Assembly: GCF_000974785.1 (NCBI RefSeq)
Contig: NZ_BBWV01000001.1
Location: 1-64,000 of the forward strand
Reading direction: 5' to 3'
Source of the DNA: Flavihumibacter petaseus NBRC 106054
Lineage (GTDB): Bacteria > Bacteroidota > Bacteroidia > Chitinophagales > Chitinophagaceae
Length of the DNA: 64,000 bases
Below the pieces are notes generated by a model. That model did no database searches and had not been told where the DNA came from. It saw nothing but the letters and a program-made list of their open reading frames with translations. Of this stretch, positions 55,756-62,597 are shown one piece after another; the first letter of the stretch is position 1; each line of letters opens with the position of its first letter. The position numbers were made by a program, and so were the translations under genes.

Positions 55756-56244
55756 TTATTGATTATCCAGCAGGTCATCAAGCCTGTCAAAGCCCTCCCG
55801 CATGCCGTGTTCCATCCCACTCTGGATCATCCCGTCACGGTCCGCAACGGAACCGTACACGGAGTGAATGGTTACCTTCGAACGTCCATCCGGCAGGTCA
55901 TCAAATACAGCCGAGTCCAGCACAACATGGCCGCGTTCAGGCATTCCTTCAAACTCAAAGGTCTGAATCACCCTTTCAGGTTCGGTAGCTTCATGCACCA
56001 CACCATTAAATCCATAGGCATTCCCATTAGGATCGGTATGGATGTAGCGGTATTTGCCACCAGTGGTGCAATCGTAATAATCAATCGTCATTGTCATGTT
56101 CTTTGGCCCCAGCCATTGCACCACCAGTTTTGGGTCGGTAAAAGCCCTGTAGACCTTTTCGCGGGGTGCATCGAACTCGCGGACTACGAACAACTCCTGC
56201 CGTCCGGGTTCCGCTTTGATCTGCATTTGATTTTTGGTAATCAT
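55756..56244 (-). CDS. SRPBCC (AHSA1-type) domain protein
   Basis: 162 residues. FVVREFDAPREKVYRAFTDP, QWLGPKNMTMTIDYYDCTTG, YRYIHTDPNGNAYGFNGVVH, MREGFDRLDDLL mark the family. Overlaps the ArsR gene by four bases (ATGA at 56241-56244), so it is translated from the same message and under the same repressor. ArsR-plus-AHSA1 pairs are common in bacteria; the ligand is not known. Confidence 0.88.
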   Translation of the reverse strand: MITKNQMQIKAEPGRQELFVVREFDAPREKVYRAFTDPKLVVQWLGPKNMTMTIDYYDCTTGGKYRYIHTDPNGNAYGFNGVVHEATEPERVIQTFEFEGMPERGHVVLDSAVFDDLPDGRSKVTIHSVYGSVADRDGMIQSGMEHGMREGFDRLDDLLDNQ

Positions 56245-56591
56245 TTTTTCTTTTTTTTGTTTTTATATGATGCATGCATATTTCCTAAAAGGTGATCCAG
56301 TTTGCCGAACCGGTGTTCCCACAGCTCCCGCAATGGCTCCAGCCAGTCGGCTACTGCACCCAGAGGTTCCAGCTGGACTTCGCAATACCTTTCCCTTCCC
56401 TCCTGCCGGATAATAACAAGCCCGCATTCTGTAAGGATCTTGATATGCTGTGATATTGCAGGCCGGCTGATGTCAAACTCGCCGGCAATCGAATTCAGGT
56501 TCATTGGTTTTTTCGCAATCAGCCCGATAATGTTGCGGCGGGTTGGATCTGCAATCGCCTGGAATACGTCGCGTCTGGCTGCTACTGTCAT
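56241..56591 (-). CDS. ArsR-family HTH transcription regulator
   Basis: 116 residues. Winged helix: QAIADPTRRNIIGLIAKKPM, then recognition helix NSIAGEFDISRPAISQHIKI, wing RQEGRERYCEV. Lacks the classical metal-binding cysteine motif (ELCVCDL), so it probably senses something other than metal or is a constitutive-type repressor. Ends in a lysine-rich tail KNKKKKK. Its promoter is flanked by two matching palindromes (56597-56612, 56623-56638), strong evidence of autoregulation. Confidence 0.93.
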   Translation of the reverse strand: MTVAARRDVFQAIADPTRRNIIGLIAKKPMNLNSIAGEFDISRPAISQHIKILTECGLVIIRQEGRERYCEVQLEPLGAVADWLEPLRELWEHRFGKLDHLLGNMHASYKNKKKKK

Positions 56592-56596
56592 GTTAT

Positions 56597-56638
56597 GTAA
56601 GTATTCGCTTACAAAACTAAACGTAAGTATTTGCTTAC
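56597..56638 (-). promoter_or_regulatory. ArsR autoregulated promoter with double operator
   Basis: Two 16-bp palindromes, GTAAGTATTCGCTTAC (56597-56612) and GTAAGTATTTGCTTAC (56623-56638), centred 26 bp apart. Between them on the minus strand sits the -7 box TAGTTTTG (56619-56612), 20 bases before the ATG at 56591. A repressor dimer on each palindrome would cover the whole promoter. Confidence 0.85.
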
Positions 56639-56684: not shown

Positions 56685-56750
56685 TTAACCTTCATTAACA
56701 ATAAACCAAGGCTGATTAACCTCCTTACCCGCTGCTGGTCAATACTTTCG
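56685..56750 (+). promoter_or_regulatory. promoter of the OMP_b-brl_3 gene with triple TTAAC site
   Basis: TTAAC occurs at 56685-56689, 56695-56699 and 56716-56720, starts spaced 10 and 21 bp. Exactly 22 bases later comes TACTTTCG (56743-56750), one base off TAnnTTTG, and the ATG is 16 bases further on. Same layout as at 60352-60417. Confidence 0.7.
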
Positions 56751-56766
56751 GGGCAGAAGTTCGTGT

Positions 56767-59544
56767 ATGAGAGCCCTCCTGTTTCTATTGTTACTGTTAC
56801 TGCTGGCCGGCTTCTTCGCCACCGCCCAGGTGACTACCCTGAAGGGTGTCGCTTTCGACAGTACCGCCCATAAGCCACTTGCCGATGCTACCGTTACCTT
56901 GTTGTTGCAGCAGGATTCTTCCCTGGTCAGCTTCACCCTGACGGATGGCGGTGGCCGATTTGACCTAAAATCGCTTCCGGCAGGCAGATACAGGCTACTG
57001 GTCACCCATGTTGCCTACCATAATTACAGCCGGTTAATTGATATCACCGGATCCACGGCAGAAAAAGACCTCGGTATGCTTTTCCTGTCAGACAAAAGCA
57101 AAATGCTGGATAGCGTAACGGTGGTAGCGGAAGCGCCACCGGTTCTACTGCTGGGTGATACAGTGCAGTACAATGCAAATTCGTTTCGCACCCTGCCCAA
57201 CGCTAACGTAGAACAATTGCTCAAAAAAATGCCAGGTATCACGGTCGGAAAAGATGGCACCGTCAAAGCACAGGGCCGCACTGTGAACCGTGTGCTGGTG
57301 GATGGAAAGGAGTTCTTCGGCAACGACCCGAAGATCGCAACCAAAAACCTGCCGGCTGATGCAATTGATAAAGTACAGGTTTATGACCGGCTGAGTGACC
57401 AGGCGCAACTCACCGGCTTTGATGACGGCAACAGTGAGAAAACCATCAACCTCACCCTGAAAAAAGACAAAAAGAAAGGATATTTCGGCAGCGCAACTGC
57501 CGGAGCGGGTACAGCTGGCCGTTATGAAGGAAAGTTTAACCTGAATTCTTTCAAAGGTGCACGTCAGTTCTCTGCCATTGCCGCTGCCAATAATACAAAT
57601 GCCGAAGCTTTTTCCTTCATGGACATGATGAATTTTACCGGTGAACTCAAGAGAATGCTGCAGGCTGGTAACGGGAATATCAATATCAGTGCTGATGATG
57701 CCGGTAATGCTTTCGGCGGCTTTGGGAATTCCGCTAATGGCATCAATAGTATTGCCGGTGCGGGGATCAACTACAATAACATGATCGGCAGAAAAATCTG
57801 GCTCACCAGCAACTATTTTGGCAGTCGTTACAGTCCATACCAGTCAATTTTGTCGGAAAAGCAATATATGCTTCCCGACTCCTCCTATTTTGTGAGCCAG
57901 TTATCCGACAAAAGAACTACCACCTGGTCGCACCGCTTCAATTTCAGTGCAGACATCGCAATAGACTCCTTTCATTCCATCAAGATCTCACCATCGTTCG
58001 GATGGCAGTCTTCCGAAGCCCTTACCAACGAGATTTACCGCCAGCGCAGCAAGGATGGCCTTCCCGGAAATGAAGGGTTCAGCAACAACCTGGTGAACAG
58101 TGACGGATACAATTTCCGGACAGATTTTCTATTCCGTAAAAAGTTTCGGAAACGTGGCAGAACATTTTCAGCGTTCATCCAGACCACAGGTAATGGCGCA
58201 ACGGGTAACGGACATTTTCTGTCGGATAACAGTTTTACCGATACACTGCGTCAGCAATTCACTTCGGGCAACCATCTGAATGGCTATTCCGCCAGGATCG
58301 TTTATACTGAACCGCTCTGGAGGAGGTCATTGCTGGAGGGCCATCTTTCCCGAAGCAGCACAAGAAACGCATCAGACCGGCTCACCTATGATTACAATGC
58401 CACTACAAATGCCTATGACCAATTAAACGATAGTCTCACAAATGATTTCAGCAGTAATTATTCAGTAGCTGTAGGCGGATTACGGCTGCGAACGATCAGG
58501 AAGAAGTTCCAGGCTGCTGTTGGCCTGTCCTGGCAACAGGCAGTACTGGAAGGCGACAGCAAGGGCTATGGAAAAGATTCCGCCATCCGGAAGTCTTTTT
58601 ACAATTTTCTGCCCAATGCAAGGGTTCAGTACCAGTTCAGCAGAAGCAAATCCCTGCAGCTGCAATACCGGCCTTTTACCCAGGCACCTTCCATTCAACA
58701 ATTGCAGCCCCTGGCGGATATCAGTAATCCGCTTTATATCAAATCAGGAAATCCGTTTCTCCGCCAGGAATTGACACATGCTGTTCAGCTCAATTATAAT
58801 GGCGTAAATCCATTCCGGAACAGGAATATTTTCATCATGATGAATCTGATCAAAACTGACGATAAGATTGTAAATGCGGATTCATTGCTGCCTGGTGGCG
58901 TAACGGTCAGCCGGCCCGTGAATGCCAGCGGTATTTATTTCACGGAAGGTGATTTTCAGTTTTCCCTTCCGGTACGGCGCTGGAAAGCCACGGTTGACTT
59001 TGGCACCAACGCCGCCTGGCAAAGGAATAAGCAACTGATGAATGGCGCAACCAACCTGATCAGCACCACATCCGCCGGTCCCTATGCCGGTATGCGGGTT
59101 GCAGTTTCAGAAAAAATCGAATGGTCTCTGCGTGCCAGCATTCGGTACAATCATACGCAATACAGCCTGCAACCGGATTTGAATACAAGATATTTCTCCC
59201 AGTATTATGAAACAGCTCTGGAATGGCAGCTGCCGCACTTTTTCCAGTTCAGCACTGATTTCAATTATACAGTCAACAACCGGTTGTCGGACGGCTTCAA
59301 TGCAAAAGTGCCGCTCTGGAGCCTTTCCGTTTCCAGGCAATTTATGCGGTTCCAGCGGGCACAACTTAGTGTCCGGGTGCAGGATCTGCTGAACCGCAAC
59401 CAGCGAGTGGAACGCACCAGCAACCAGAATTATATTGAAGACAAAAGGACCAATACCCTCAGGCGGTATGCATTGCTCAGTTTCACTTATAACCTGCAAA
59501 AAAATGGCGCTGCCGGAGGCAACGCCATTCAATTGAGAAAATAG
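56767..59544 (+). CDS. TonB-dependent-receptor-like outer-membrane protein (OMP_b-brl_3 type)
   Basis: 925 residues; signal peptide MRALLFLLLLLLLAGFF. Carboxypeptidase-regulatory-like domain (TLKGVAFDSTAHKPLADATV), then a reduced plug (VEQLLKKMPGITVGKDGTVK, VLVDGKEFFGNDPKIATKNL) and a barrel with the outer-membrane beta-barrel family 3 signature, ending RYALLSFTYNLQ and a short tail. These proteins are distant TonB-dependent receptors of Bacteroidota with unknown substrates. Convergent with the GLPGLI gene (10 bases between stops) and co-regulated with it by its promoter layout. Confidence 0.9.
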   Translation: MRALLFLLLLLLLAGFFATAQVTTLKGVAFDSTAHKPLADATVTLLLQQDSSLVSFTLTDGGGRFDLKSLPAGRYRLLVTHVAYHNYSRLIDITGSTAEKDLGMLFLSDKSKMLDSVTVVAEAPPVLLLGDTVQYNANSFRTLPNANVEQLLKKMPGITVGKDGTVKAQGRTVNRVLVDGKEFFGNDPKIATKNLPADAIDKVQVYDRLSDQAQLTGFDDGNSEKTINLTLKKDKKKGYFGSATAGAGTAGRYEGKFNLNSFKGARQFSAIAAANNTNAEAFSFMDMMNFTGELKRMLQAGNGNINISADDAGNAFGGFGNSANGINSIAGAGINYNNMIGRKIWLTSNYFGSRYSPYQSILSEKQYMLPDSSYFVSQLSDKRTTTWSHRFNFSADIAIDSFHSIKISPSFGWQSSEALTNEIYRQRSKDGLPGNEGFSNNLVNSDGYNFRTDFLFRKKFRKRGRTFSAFIQTTGNGATGNGHFLSDNSFTDTLRQQFTSGNHLNGYSARIVYTEPLWRRSLLEGHLSRSSTRNASDRLTYDYNATTNAYDQLNDSLTNDFSSNYSVAVGGLRLRTIRKKFQAAVGLSWQQAVLEGDSKGYGKDSAIRKSFYNFLPNARVQYQFSRSKSLQLQYRPFTQAPSIQQLQPLADISNPLYIKSGNPFLRQELTHAVQLNYNGVNPFRNRNIFIMMNLIKTDDKIVNADSLLPGGVTVSRPVNASGIYFTEGDFQFSLPVRRWKATVDFGTNAAWQRNKQLMNGATNLISTTSAGPYAGMRVAVSEKIEWSLRASIRYNHTQYSLQPDLNTRYFSQYYETALEWQLPHFFQFSTDFNYTVNNRLSDGFNAKVPLWSLSVSRQFMRFQRAQLSVRVQDLLNRNQRVERTSNQNYIEDKRTNTLRRYALLSFTYNLQKNGAAGGNAIQLRK

Positions 59545-59554
59545 TAACACCAGC

Positions 59555-60337
59555 CTAATTAATGCGGATACGCATGTTCCCGTTTCCCTGATTGTTTTTC
59601 TGCATTTCCTCCATCATTTTATTTCGTTCTTGAATGAATTCTGAGGGACTGACTTTTTTCCCTTTTGCAGGTTCCCGGATAGCGGCAATATCGGCTTTGG
59701 CTTCAATAGCAGTAACCTCGTAGCGGGTACGGCCATGATTTCCTTCCAGTATCATGATCAGCCCCGGCAATTGTCCCTGCATTTCTGGTCCTGCAGGAAC
59801 GGGAATATCAATGGCAAACCAGGCGGCAACTTCCGTGGTATCTGAAAACTCCCTGCGGCTCATTTTCCCATTGTCCATCGTCATCATGCTTCGCTGGGAG
59901 ATCCGTTGACCTGTGGCTTTTCTGCAGGAATGCCCCAGTATTGTCCGGCTGGAATCACTGAGTATCCATTTGCCCTTTGCCAGTGTATCCGACACCAGGA
60001 ATTTGCGATCGAAAAACTCCCGCTGCTCCACCTTCTTTCCCGCGTTAAAATCGCAATAAATAATATCATCAGTACCACCGATGGTGCGGATCACAAGCCC
60101 TCCACCGCCGCTGACCGTTTCATCCGGAAGTTCGTCATCTGCCTTCTGCCAGATCATTTTTCCACCTGCAAAATCAAGTACAAAATTATCGGTGCGTTTC
60201 CGCTCCACAGGTCCTTCACCGTCGAGTTGCAGCTGCATAAGCGTGGTGCGGGTATAATAAACCCTCGCTTCCCTTTGCTGGCAGAAAGCGCTGCCGGCAG
60301 CCAGGGCGAAAACCCCTAAAATCAATATTCTTTTCAT
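59555..60337 (-). CDS. GLPGLI family protein
   Basis: 260 residues; signal peptide MKRILILGVFALAAGSAFC. Defines the family with its motif as GQLPGLIMILEGN near residue 190, plus FVLDFAGGKMIWQK and SSRTILGHSCRKATG. Function not known; the family usually sits beside a TonB-receptor-like protein, as here. The C-terminal tail (EEMQKNNQGNGNMRIRIN) is polar and asparagine-rich. Confidence 0.93.
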   Translation of the reverse strand: MKRILILGVFALAAGSAFCQQREARVYYTRTTLMQLQLDGEGPVERKRTDNFVLDFAGGKMIWQKADDELPDETVSGGGGLVIRTIGGTDDIIYCDFNAGKKVEQREFFDRKFLVSDTLAKGKWILSDSSRTILGHSCRKATGQRISQRSMMTMDNGKMSRREFSDTTEVAAWFAIDIPVPAGPEMQGQLPGLIMILEGNHGRTRYEVTAIEAKADIAAIREPAKGKKVSPSEFIQERNKMMEEMQKNNQGNGNMRIRIN

Positions 60338-60351
60338 ACAATAGTTTTGAC

Positions 60352-60417
60352 CAAAGCTATCCCAGCCCCAAGGCCTGGATAGTTAACACACCTTACAATA
60401 AGGTTAATAAAGGTTAA
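60352..60417 (-). promoter_or_regulatory. promoter of the GLPGLI gene with triple TTAAC site
   Basis: On the minus strand TTAAC lies at 60417-60413, 60407-60403 and 60386-60382, starts spaced 10 and 21 bp. After 22 bases comes a perfect -7 box TAGCTTTG (60359-60352), and the ATG starts 14 bases later. Same arrangement as at 56685-56750. The site lies between the GLPGLI gene and the divergent histidine kinase gene. Confidence 0.75.
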
Positions 60418-60465
60418 AGCCATAAACCGCCATCAGGAATTGGGTAGATTTTGTTTTTAGTGAAT

Positions 60466-61911
60466 ATGAAAACCATTTCCTGGTCATATGGCAGTATTCT
60501 GCTGGCGATGCTGTTGATTGCCGGTTTCCAGGTCTATTGGATCAGGGACAACTACCTGCGTGAGAAAAGGGCACTCGAAAGCCGTGCAAAATCAATATTT
60601 ACGGAAACCGTGATGCAATTGCAGGATTCTGCTGTCAAAGCACGGATTATTAAAGCTGGTGGTGATACTGCCGAGGCTCCCGGCCCCGCTGGCTTTACAG
60701 CTGCATTGCGCCGCCAGCCACCGCTACCCGGTGATTCCATCAGGCAGGTCGTTGTATTTAGGAAGGGAGGGGCTGACACCGCTTCAGGCAAGCGTTTTTT
60801 GACCGTGCGGGAGAATACCCACACGACGGATTCCGGCGGAACCAGATCAGTATCTGTCAATACGCTGATTTATACGAATGACAAAGGCCGGACCCTGCTG
60901 CTCAAAATGGATTCCCTGCTGTCTGACACAATTCCCATAGCGGTGATACAAGCCGGTTTTCGCCGATCGCTTGACCAGCAAGAAATGACTGTCGGATTCA
61001 TTGTATTTGCAGACACCGCGGTAAATGAAGCGGAGGAAGACAAACTTGCGAAACTATTGCTTTGGAAAAAGTCCGGATCATACAATTTTGTATTGGCCCA
61101 TACCTTTCCCTACCTGCTGCGTAAGATTACCCTGCCGCTGATCTTCTCGGTTTTCCTGATCGGCATTACACTTGCGGCATTTCTTCTGTTATTCCACAAC
61201 CTTCGCAAACAACACAGGTTGTCTGCGATCAAGAATGAGTTCATCAGCAATATTTCCCACGAGCTGAAAACACCTATTGCGACGGTTTCGGTTGCACTCG
61301 AAGCCTTACGGGATTTCCATGCCCGTAAAGACCCCTTGCGCACCCAGGAGTACCTCGACATTTCGCACCAGGAACTTCAAAGATTGTCGCTGCTGGTAGA
61401 CAAGGTGCTGAAGCTATCCATCTTTGAAAAAAAAGCGATCGAACTGAAAGAAGAAGCCGTGGAACTGGCAATGATCGTGGAAGAGGTCGCCGGATCAATG
61501 CGGCTTCAGTATGACAAATGCGGGGCAACCCTCCATACCAGCTTTGACGGAGATACTACTGTTATGGGCGACCGGCTTCACCTGCTGAGTGTGGTGTTCA
61601 ACCTGCTTGATAATGCACTTAAATACAGTGGACAAAGTCCGGAAGTTTTTGTGCGGGTATCGGGAACTTCCCGGGAAGTGATCCTAACCGTTCGCGATAA
61701 CGGTATTGGTATTCCTGAAGTGTATACGGAAAAAGTATTTGAGAAATTTTTTCGGGTTCCCCAGGGTAATGTACACCAGGCAAAAGGTTACGGGCTTGGA
61801 CTCAGTTATGTTGCTGCCATCATGAAGCAACACCGGGGAAGCATCCGTGCAGAAAGTATTCTTGGAAAAGGCAGCAATTTCATCCTTCATTTCCCTGCAG
61901 GCCGTTTATGA
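60466..61911 (+). CDS. sensor histidine kinase next to the GLPGLI gene
   Basis: 481 residues from ATG 60466. Two membrane helices (about 6-27 and 222-247) frame a ~195-residue periplasmic sensor. Then HisKA with NEFISNISHELKTPIATVSV (H at about residue 266) and HATPase (VVFNLLDNALKYSGQ, RDNGIGIPEVYTEKVFEKFF, GYGLGLSYVAAIMKQH). No HAMP or PAS is obvious. Overlaps the regulator gene by four bases (ATGA). Confidence 0.93.
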   Translation: MKTISWSYGSILLAMLLIAGFQVYWIRDNYLREKRALESRAKSIFTETVMQLQDSAVKARIIKAGGDTAEAPGPAGFTAALRRQPPLPGDSIRQVVVFRKGGADTASGKRFLTVRENTHTTDSGGTRSVSVNTLIYTNDKGRTLLLKMDSLLSDTIPIAVIQAGFRRSLDQQEMTVGFIVFADTAVNEAEEDKLAKLLLWKKSGSYNFVLAHTFPYLLRKITLPLIFSVFLIGITLAAFLLLFHNLRKQHRLSAIKNEFISNISHELKTPIATVSVALEALRDFHARKDPLRTQEYLDISHQELQRLSLLVDKVLKLSIFEKKAIELKEEAVELAMIVEEVAGSMRLQYDKCGATLHTSFDGDTTVMGDRLHLLSVVFNLLDNALKYSGQSPEVFVRVSGTSREVILTVRDNGIGIPEVYTEKVFEKFFRVPQGNVHQAKGYGLGLSYVAAIMKQHRGSIRAESILGKGSNFILHFPAGRL

Positions 61912-62597
61912 AAAAAACAAAAATCCTTTATGTTGAAGACGAGGTCTTTCTGGGAAAGATCGTAAAAGAAAGTCTGGAAACGCGGGGCTTTGACGTGATC
62001 ATGGAAACTGATGGCCATCTTGCGCTGCAACGATTTTCTGAAACCGAACCAGACTGTTGCGTGCTGGATATTATGTTGCCGGGAACCGATGGATTTGCGA
62101 TTGCTGACAGCATCAGGGCAGTCAATAAAACTGTTCCGATCCTGTTCCTGAGTGCACGTACGCAAACCGAAGATGTGGTAAAGGGGTTTGCCGTAGGCGG
62201 TCATGATTATATCCGGAAACCTTTCAGCCTCGAAGAACTTATTGTAAGGATACATCATATACTTCGCATTGGCAGTGCTGCTGAAACACCTGTTACAGAC
62301 GGTTGGCTTGAAATGGGCCTTTTCCGCTTTCATGATACCCGCCAGGTTTTGCAGTCCGGCAGTGAAGAACGTAAACTCACTTACCGTGAAGCAGCGCTCC
62401 TGAAGCTGTTATGTGAACATCGGAACAGGATCATCGACCGGAGGGATATCCTGAATCTGCTCTGGGGAAACGATTCTTTTTTCAACAGCAGAAACCTCGA
62501 TGTTTATATCACCCGGCTGCGCAGTTACCTGAGGCCGGATCCCCGGCTGCAGATCACCACGATCAAAGGAATCGGATACCGTTTTACCGTGGGGTAA
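61908..62597 (+). CDS. OmpR/PhoB-family response regulator
   Basis: 229 residues: receiver domain (ILYVEDEVFLGKIVKESLE, phospho-Asp in CCVLDIMLPGTDG near residue 53, Lys in IRKPFSLEEL) and winged-helix DNA-binding domain (LTYREAALLKLLCEHRNRII, RNLDVYITRLRSYLRPD, IKGIGYRFTV). OmpR-type proteins bind direct repeats spaced about 10-11 bp, which fits the TTAAC repeats 10 bp apart at the OMP and GLPGLI promoters. Confidence 0.95.
   Translation: MKKTKILYVEDEVFLGKIVKESLETRGFDVIMETDGHLALQRFSETEPDCCVLDIMLPGTDGFAIADSIRAVNKTVPILFLSARTQTEDVVKGFAVGGHDYIRKPFSLEELIVRIHHILRIGSAAETPVTDGWLEMGLFRFHDTRQVLQSGSEERKLTYREAALLKLLCEHRNRIIDRRDILNLLWGNDSFFNSRNLDVYITRLRSYLRPDPRLQITTIKGIGYRFTVG

Follow-up and report, generated by a model that had tools for sequence, protein, structure and literature searches.

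Triple TTAAC arrays most likely form a shared switch for a GLPGLI gene, an outer-membrane beta-barrel gene and the neighboring two-component system in Flavihumibacter petaseus

Riemerella anatipestifer belongs to Bacteroidota, and its PhoP regulator has binding sites and targets resembling a pattern that we analyzed in Flavihumibacter petaseus NBRC 106054, in the first 64,000 nucleotides of contig NZ_BBWV01000001.1 (this whole stretch is the window). Here a GLPGLI family gene and an outer-membrane beta-barrel gene with an OMP_b-brl_3 domain (the OMP gene) carry the same triple TTAAC array at their promoters, next to genes for a sensor histidine kinase and an OmpR/PhoB-type response regulator, and it is most likely, judging from the sequences, that the GLPGLI gene, the OMP gene and the kinase-regulator pair share a strictly spaced switch letting a sensor turn them on together. 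In the available part of the Riemerella report, DNA affinity purification sequencing (DAP-seq) gave a PhoP motif with TTTAACA as its most conserved bases, the TTAAC core thus being common to both systems, and the 50 direct targets included five genes of the GLPGLI family and one for an outer-membrane beta-barrel protein, kinds of target that the Riemerella regulon and this module have in common; PhoP also binds upstream of its own operon, like the autoregulation proposed here (PMC9603813). It differs in having 583 peaks and targets going both up and down, and that part of the report gives neither a fixed array of half-sites at 0, 10 and 31 nor a two-gene regulon (PMC9603813).

Escherichia coli ArcA, as described in the consulted sections of PMC3798270, is also of the OmpR/PhoB type and recognizes two direct repeats one turn apart, like those of the present arrays, with a further repeat two turns away at some operators (trxC); the number and spacing of its repeats vary, whereas here a single geometry recurs in 76 of the 77 usable loci, and two genes together with the system itself make up the regulon. 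Mycobacterium tuberculosis PhoP, according to the accessible portion of PMC4832192, binds direct repeats as a head-to-tail tandem dimer with strict spacing and can extend to three and four repeats, but its 7-bp motif and 4-bp spacer give an 11-bp period, whereas the first two half-sites here are 10 bp apart and the half-site itself is another. No paper joining TTAAC, Bacteroidetes and histidine kinase, and none on this operator, was found in a literature search that left subscription papers mostly outside, and the papers on Porphyromonas gingivalis RprY and PG0720 yielded no binding motif. The switch seems to be of a known kind, and this particular operator seems undescribed.

At both promoters of the window, three TTAAC words with the same spacing precede a -7 box and the start codon (Table 1). 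On the plus strand, 16 bases separate TACTTTCG from the ATG at 56767; on the minus strand, the third TTAAC ends at 60382, followed by 22 bases, TAGCTTTG, 14 bases and the ATG at 60337. The initial annotation had described this layout, with starts 10 and 21 bp apart, 22 bases to the -7 box and the ATG 14-16 bases on, and the coordinates bear it out, as they do the convergence of the two genes, whose stops (59544 and 59555) leave 10 bases between them. Duplication of one unit, which it had likewise denied, can be rejected: the array interiors differ, the genes are unrelated, and distant OMP genes of related genomes retain arrays. In the OMP-side array, AA occupies array positions 23-24, on the turn separating the second and third TTAAC. 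The strict 36-bp pattern TTAAC-N5-TTAAC-N16-TTAAC matches the 5,687,994-base genome twice, at exactly these arrays, with about 0.003-0.012 matches expected by chance, and a backwards control of the pattern has 0 matches in the same genome. At the second GLPGLI gene of the genome (contig C18, locus L005), the 3090 bases searched contain no such array even with 3 mismatches allowed, nor is there one in 7001 bases of the other paralogous regulator region (L168).

Table 1. Features of the module in the window; operator and promoter assignments are predictions.
Feature	Position	Strand	Remarks
Putative OMP-side operator array	56685..56720	+	TTAAC at 56685, 56695, 56716 (0/10/31)
Putative -7 box TACTTTCG, OMP promoter	56743..56750	+	C at -6 (atypical); 22 bases past array
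OMP_b-brl_3 outer-membrane beta-barrel gene	56767..59544	+	CarboxypepD_reg domain; 925 amino acids
GLPGLI family gene	59555..60337	-	TIGR01200; signal-peptide-like start; 260 amino acids
Putative -7 box TAGCTTTG, GLPGLI promoter	60359-60352	-	G at -10 (atypical)
Putative GLPGLI-side operator array	60382..60417	-	TTAAC from 60417, 60407, 60386; also faces divergent kinase promoter
Probable -7 box TAGATTTTG, kinase-regulator promoter	60445..60453	+	Imperfect; 27 bases from array edge
Sensor histidine kinase gene	60466..61911	+	Probable partner of regulator; 481 amino acids
OmpR/PhoB-type response regulator gene, RprY-like	61908..62597	+	Proposed binder of arrays; 229 amino acids

The repeats, whose absence from close relatives the initial annotation had named as speaking against its reading, are widely conserved. 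The best 80 loci from a regulator scan of genomes have regulators 61-68% identical to that of the window and include Terrimonas, Niastella, Chitinophaga, Sediminibacterium and Filimonas, all genera of the family Chitinophagaceae. The GLPGLI-side array occurs in 76 of the 80 loci and in 76 of the 77 usable ones, three (L042, L049, L076) being left out as their contigs stop short of the region upstream of the kinase; the form in L093 is a reduced one, and among representatives below 85% regulator identity the array is present in 40 of 43. The strict pattern has 109 matches in the 1,194,221 bases of the 80 loci, their spacing being fixed by construction because the search pattern was strict, so that the meaningful figures are 76/77 loci and, as given below, 66/74 genomes. 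As the proposed scan upstream of GLPGLI genes had anticipated, 75 of these sites precede a GLPGLI gene; 32 precede OMP_b-brl_3 genes, and two stand at the GLPGLI position without an assigned gene (in L044 GLPGLI was not recognized, in L089 it is cut). None of the 109 was assigned to another gene, and the backwards control gave 0 in the 80 loci. Immediately before the first TTAAC stands an A in 62% of GLPGLI and 67% of OMP arrays, to be compared with the Riemerella half-site TTTAACA; before the second TTAAC it is A in 100% and 86%, respectively, and the base after TTAAC is C or A.

Array presence also follows the regulator. With an orthologue defined by E below 1e-80 and 56% or more identity, 74 of 244 family genomes have the regulator (at most 11 candidates were scored per genome, so that an orthologue may have been missed, and the counts derive from hand-typed lists), and 66 of these 74 have a strict site versus 8 of the 140 genomes that have neither an orthologue nor a paralogue-class regulator nor a fragment (Fisher p 9e-37). 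Genomes with a paralogue-class regulator have a site in 15 of 26 cases and those with a fragment in 3 of 4, while the backwards control matches 25 of all 244 genomes, including 5 of the 74 with an orthologue. Six of the eight regulator-less exceptions were inspected, and in all six the arrays adjoin module genes (L169-L172, L205, L206). Four other genomes of the same genus, with only ~40% paralogues, have no site (4/4).

A whole-genome search in 26 of the 80 loci's genomes found sites in all 26, 57 in total (21 genomes with two, 5 with three), compared with 2 matches of the backwards control. Every one of these genomes has an array at GLPGLI and another at the OMP orthologue, which lies within the locus in 16 cases and outside it in 10, at 7 to 235 kb or on another contig. 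All ten outside arrays precede an OMP gene, 40-55% identical, and two of the ten pieces carry another kinase (28-32% identical) further on. Since OMP genes outside the locus keep arrays, the shared operator is no by-product of neighborhood or duplication. Five extra sites are left: at four, the 4-5 kb examined encode no module protein of the four kinds, and the fifth lies behind a paralogous regulator.

The promoters themselves are unusual. We follow the promoter numbering of a Flavobacterium johnsoniae study, the available part of which places the box at -12 to -5, calls G at -10 or -9 'virtually zero' and finds the -33 motif weak in general (PMC6847099). A -7 box of the form TAnnTT[TCA][GA] lies 22 bases past the array in 43/43 OMP and 64/78 GLPGLI arrays, and 11-12 bases past it, one turn less, in 13/78 GLPGLI arrays; the stricter form TAnnTT[TC]G gives 40/43 and 60/78 at 22 bases and 11/78 at 11-12. 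In GLPGLI boxes, position -10 is G in 64 of 71, versus 2 of 40 among the boxes of other genes in these loci; in OMP boxes, position -6 is C in 33 of 40, versus 7 of 57 TAnnTTNG boxes at such other genes. A TTG 19-21 bases before the box, as a -33 element, occurs in 2/71 GLPGLI and 0/40 OMP promoters, an absence that says less because of the general weakness of this motif (PMC6847099, same portion). Except at the 13 arrays with the shorter spacing, the last TTAAC falls at -39 to -35, in agreement with the activator position near -35 assumed at the outset, so that a half-site lies beside -35/-33 of a promoter missing its own -33 element, as with class II-like activators. Taken together, the atypical -7 boxes and the missing -33 TTG have the look that would be expected of an activator-dependent promoter.

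On its outer side, the GLPGLI array has TAnnTTTG 28-30 bases from its edge in 74 of 78 arrays, and 72 of these 74 kinase boxes fit TAHHTTTG; the four without an exact box are the window, L083, L092 and the second array of L036. Five loci (L187, L188, L190, L191, L193) have kinase and regulator and no GLPGLI gene in the piece examined; they retain the 0/10 pair and the kinase box at 29 but have lost the third TTAAC (for L193, pair and box were identified by eye). These loci amount to a natural dissection of the array, which suggests that the 0/10 pair serves the kinase operon and the third TTAAC GLPGLI, a division of roles that L173 and L044 do not follow. By eye, the kinase-side ATG of L029-L108 often stands about 10 bases past the -7 box, which suggests that kinase mRNA leaders could be very short, and in the window ATG 60466 is most likely the kinase start.

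The same frame recurs at fourteen paralogous regulator loci, which were picked because a site adjoins the regulator. The downstream genes are GLPGLI-OMP in five, a large protein with a TMEM260-like domain in five (checked for L155, L157 and L161; L158 and L166 are placed solely by the likeness of their starts), an OMP gene behind the regulator in two, AhpC/TSA in one and the kinase itself in one, and it is possible that some of these systems tie envelope sensing to protein glycosylation via TMEM260-like O-mannosyltransferases. Among 198 genomes of the class, a tighter pattern matches 14 versus 6 for the backwards control, and the pattern alone is therefore weak at this level. Nine of the 12 class-level sites outside the window genome and G070 adjoin a divergent kinase with a regulator 1.5-2.0 kb off, the other three being one before an OMP gene and two unrelated. 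Five of the nine (L177, L178, L180, L181, L182), from two other families, have a fourth TTAAC (0/10/20/31), which suggests that a full array consists of four half-sites.

The interior of the array varies with the regulator beside it: over 15 regulator/array pairs, DNA-binding-domain identity correlates with array-interior identity (Spearman 0.76; Mantel 0/2000 permutations), and, with helix classes drawn up after the data were seen, YFIS..IR[RK] goes with TTGGG in 4/4 and FFNS..IRK with TT[CA]CC in 7/7. The window's orthologue set has FFNS..[IV]T[KR] in 73 of 76 loci and AA at positions 23-24 in 68/77 GLPGLI-side and 31/32 OMP arrays; the window-type word was restated in this form because AAGG is typical of GLPGLI but not of OMP arrays (50/77 versus 6/32), and neither TTGG nor TT[CA]CC occurs in any of the 109 arrays of this set. 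Seven third-turn words were predicted in advance, and all five testable cases fitted, L201 and L202 being without a regulator; no regulator of this type was found in the pieces of L199, L200, L201, L202, L204, L205 and L206. Our results raise the possibility, tentative, made somewhat less probable by L203 and by the uneven occurrence of AAGG, and on balance rather doubtful, that a subfamily of RprY-like regulators in Bacteroidia has TTAAC at 0/10/31 as its common frame and that the recognition helix reads the third-turn word as a discriminator, FFNS..IT[KR] pairing with AA at 23-24 (often AAGG), FFNS..IRK with TT(C/A)CC and YFIS..IR[RK] with TTGG. The covariation of helix and word may also stem from shared ancestry. 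If the discriminator reading is true, the third-turn word would separate several sensor systems working in parallel within a cell, every one of them with an envelope module to itself, either GLPGLI-OMP or a TMEM260-like O-mannosyltransferase, and the third turn would allow one to test whether paralogous two-component systems escape cross-talk through a shared frame with one changed word.

Given direct repeats about one helical turn apart, as in operators of the OmpR/PhoB family, and a cognate winged-helix response regulator that is nearby and co-occurs with them, the arrays are very probably operators of the adjacent two-component system, activating GLPGLI and OMP together. The kinase would sense an envelope signal and phosphorylate the regulator, which would bind TTAAC half-sites on one helix face at 0 and 10 and two turns on at 31; the intervening turn, at about positions 20-26, would probably be contacted more weakly or in a distinct manner. 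Because the last TTAAC adjoins the place of the missing -33 element, the regulator could aid RNA polymerase at weak promoters, turning the GLPGLI and OMP genes on together. The GLPGLI array would also act in the opposite direction, its outer half-site pair for the most part, to control the kinase-regulator operon (autoregulation). The initial annotation had likewise assigned joint control of both genes to the neighboring regulator, and conservation, the outside OMP arrays and co-occurrence with the regulator support it, whereas that the regulator switches the genes on is something we infer. The kinase-regulator promoter across the GLPGLI array, the atypical -7 boxes and the regulator-specific third turn go beyond that annotation. 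In this form the system would be a nearly closed, sequence-defined regulon (GLPGLI, OMP_b-brl_3, kinase and regulator) linking two envelope proteins, and its operator, being searchable in genomes, would offer a handle for finding the inducing signal.

Several observations weigh against this activator model. The related loci share ancestry, so that their counts are not independent events, and 8 of the 74 regulator genomes lack a strict site: six keep only TTAAC-N5-TTAAC (G064, G067, G115, G161, G264, G275), and the others are G195, with no kinase found in the piece examined, and G082, at a contig end. In L173 the third TTAAC is missing at a GLPGLI gene, L044 retains the array where no such gene was recognized, the kinase-side box of the window itself is imperfect, and L203 has a window-type helix with no AA at 23-24, which also counts against the discriminator idea. 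Finally, the -7 box only 11-12 bases from the array in 13/78 GLPGLI arrays, which puts the last TTAAC at -28 to -24, inside the promoter, would also suit a repressor. It is thus conceivable, although unlikely, that the regulator binds the arrays and represses both genes until the signal releases it. In the accessible part of the Riemerella study, five directly bound GLPGLI genes change upon PhoP deletion, the two that rise being compatible with repression and the three that fall speaking against it (PMC9603813); moreover, targets without a -33 TTG and with atypical -7 boxes look too weak to need repression, and in most arrays the last half-site occupies the activator position at -39 to -35.

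That a protein other than the neighboring regulator binds the arrays is quite improbable: a paralogue could do so, as TTAAC cores are common to the arrays of several paralogous regulators, but array presence follows this regulator, the same-genus genomes with only ~40% paralogues have no site, and the third-turn word tracks the type of the adjacent regulator. The fixed kinase-side spacing and the persistence of the 0/10 pair without GLPGLI would agree with an array serving only autoregulation of kinase and regulator, with the target genes as bystanders; this is very improbable, because OMP genes outside the locus have arrays of their own and the loss of GLPGLI in five genomes goes with that of the third TTAAC. 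Chance or composition has next to no probability left and is already refuted, for although a word as short as TTAAC is common (79 occurrences on both strands of the window), the two strict sites far exceed expectation and are conserved and co-occur with the regulator.

Domain searches agree with the OmpR-type regulator said at the outset to adjoin the two genes. The OMP_b-brl_3 domain (E 6e-41), kinase and regulator were confirmed by Pfam and NCBIfam, the latter with Response_reg and Trans_reg_C (Pfam), and GLPGLI TIGR01200 scores 107.8 bits, above the cut-off of 50. The best NCBIfam match of the regulator, nearly full length, is RprY (NF051850), and with 224.3 bits against a cut-off of 370 it can be called RprY-like only; PhoB of Bacteroidetes (NF053854) was rejected at 153.7 bits against 270. 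GLPGLI appears in Pfam as Porph_ging, a 'protein of unknown function'. Its predicted structure is good (predicted local distance difference test, pLDDT, 88) and resembles six chains of PNGase F-II-type structures (E 6e-8 to 1e-5, template modeling score ~0.5 of query), and, weakly, ependymin-related proteins, which have a lipid-carrier-like (LolA) fold; Pfam PNGase_F-II_N also matches the paralogue L160. From this model one might guess at a periplasmic carrier partnered with an outer-membrane barrel. The structure model of the kinase sensor is poor (mean pLDDT 66.9). The regulator has no close relative in 14 other genomes of the genus (best 41-43%) and is present in other genera, and the patchy distribution of the module possibly reflects horizontal transfer.

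A genome scan tolerating one mismatch gave one further match, C22:797825, which was rejected as a third copy: read in the opposite direction, it is an array of TTAAC words spaced 11/10/10, with a 40% paralogous regulator on one side and a TolC-like gene on the other. Locally (L003 1502-1557, C22 near 797,830), TTAAC starts at 1502, 1513 and 1533, with TTAAT at 1523, preceded by the 40% paralogous regulator and followed by the TolC-like outer membrane efflux gene. Within the window, two similar 16-base near-palindromes, GTAAGTATTCGCTTAC and GTAAGTATTTGCTTAC, lie at 56597-56638, upstream of an ArsR-family gene (56241-56591, minus strand) and 47 bases before the OMP array, and likely form an ArsR operator.

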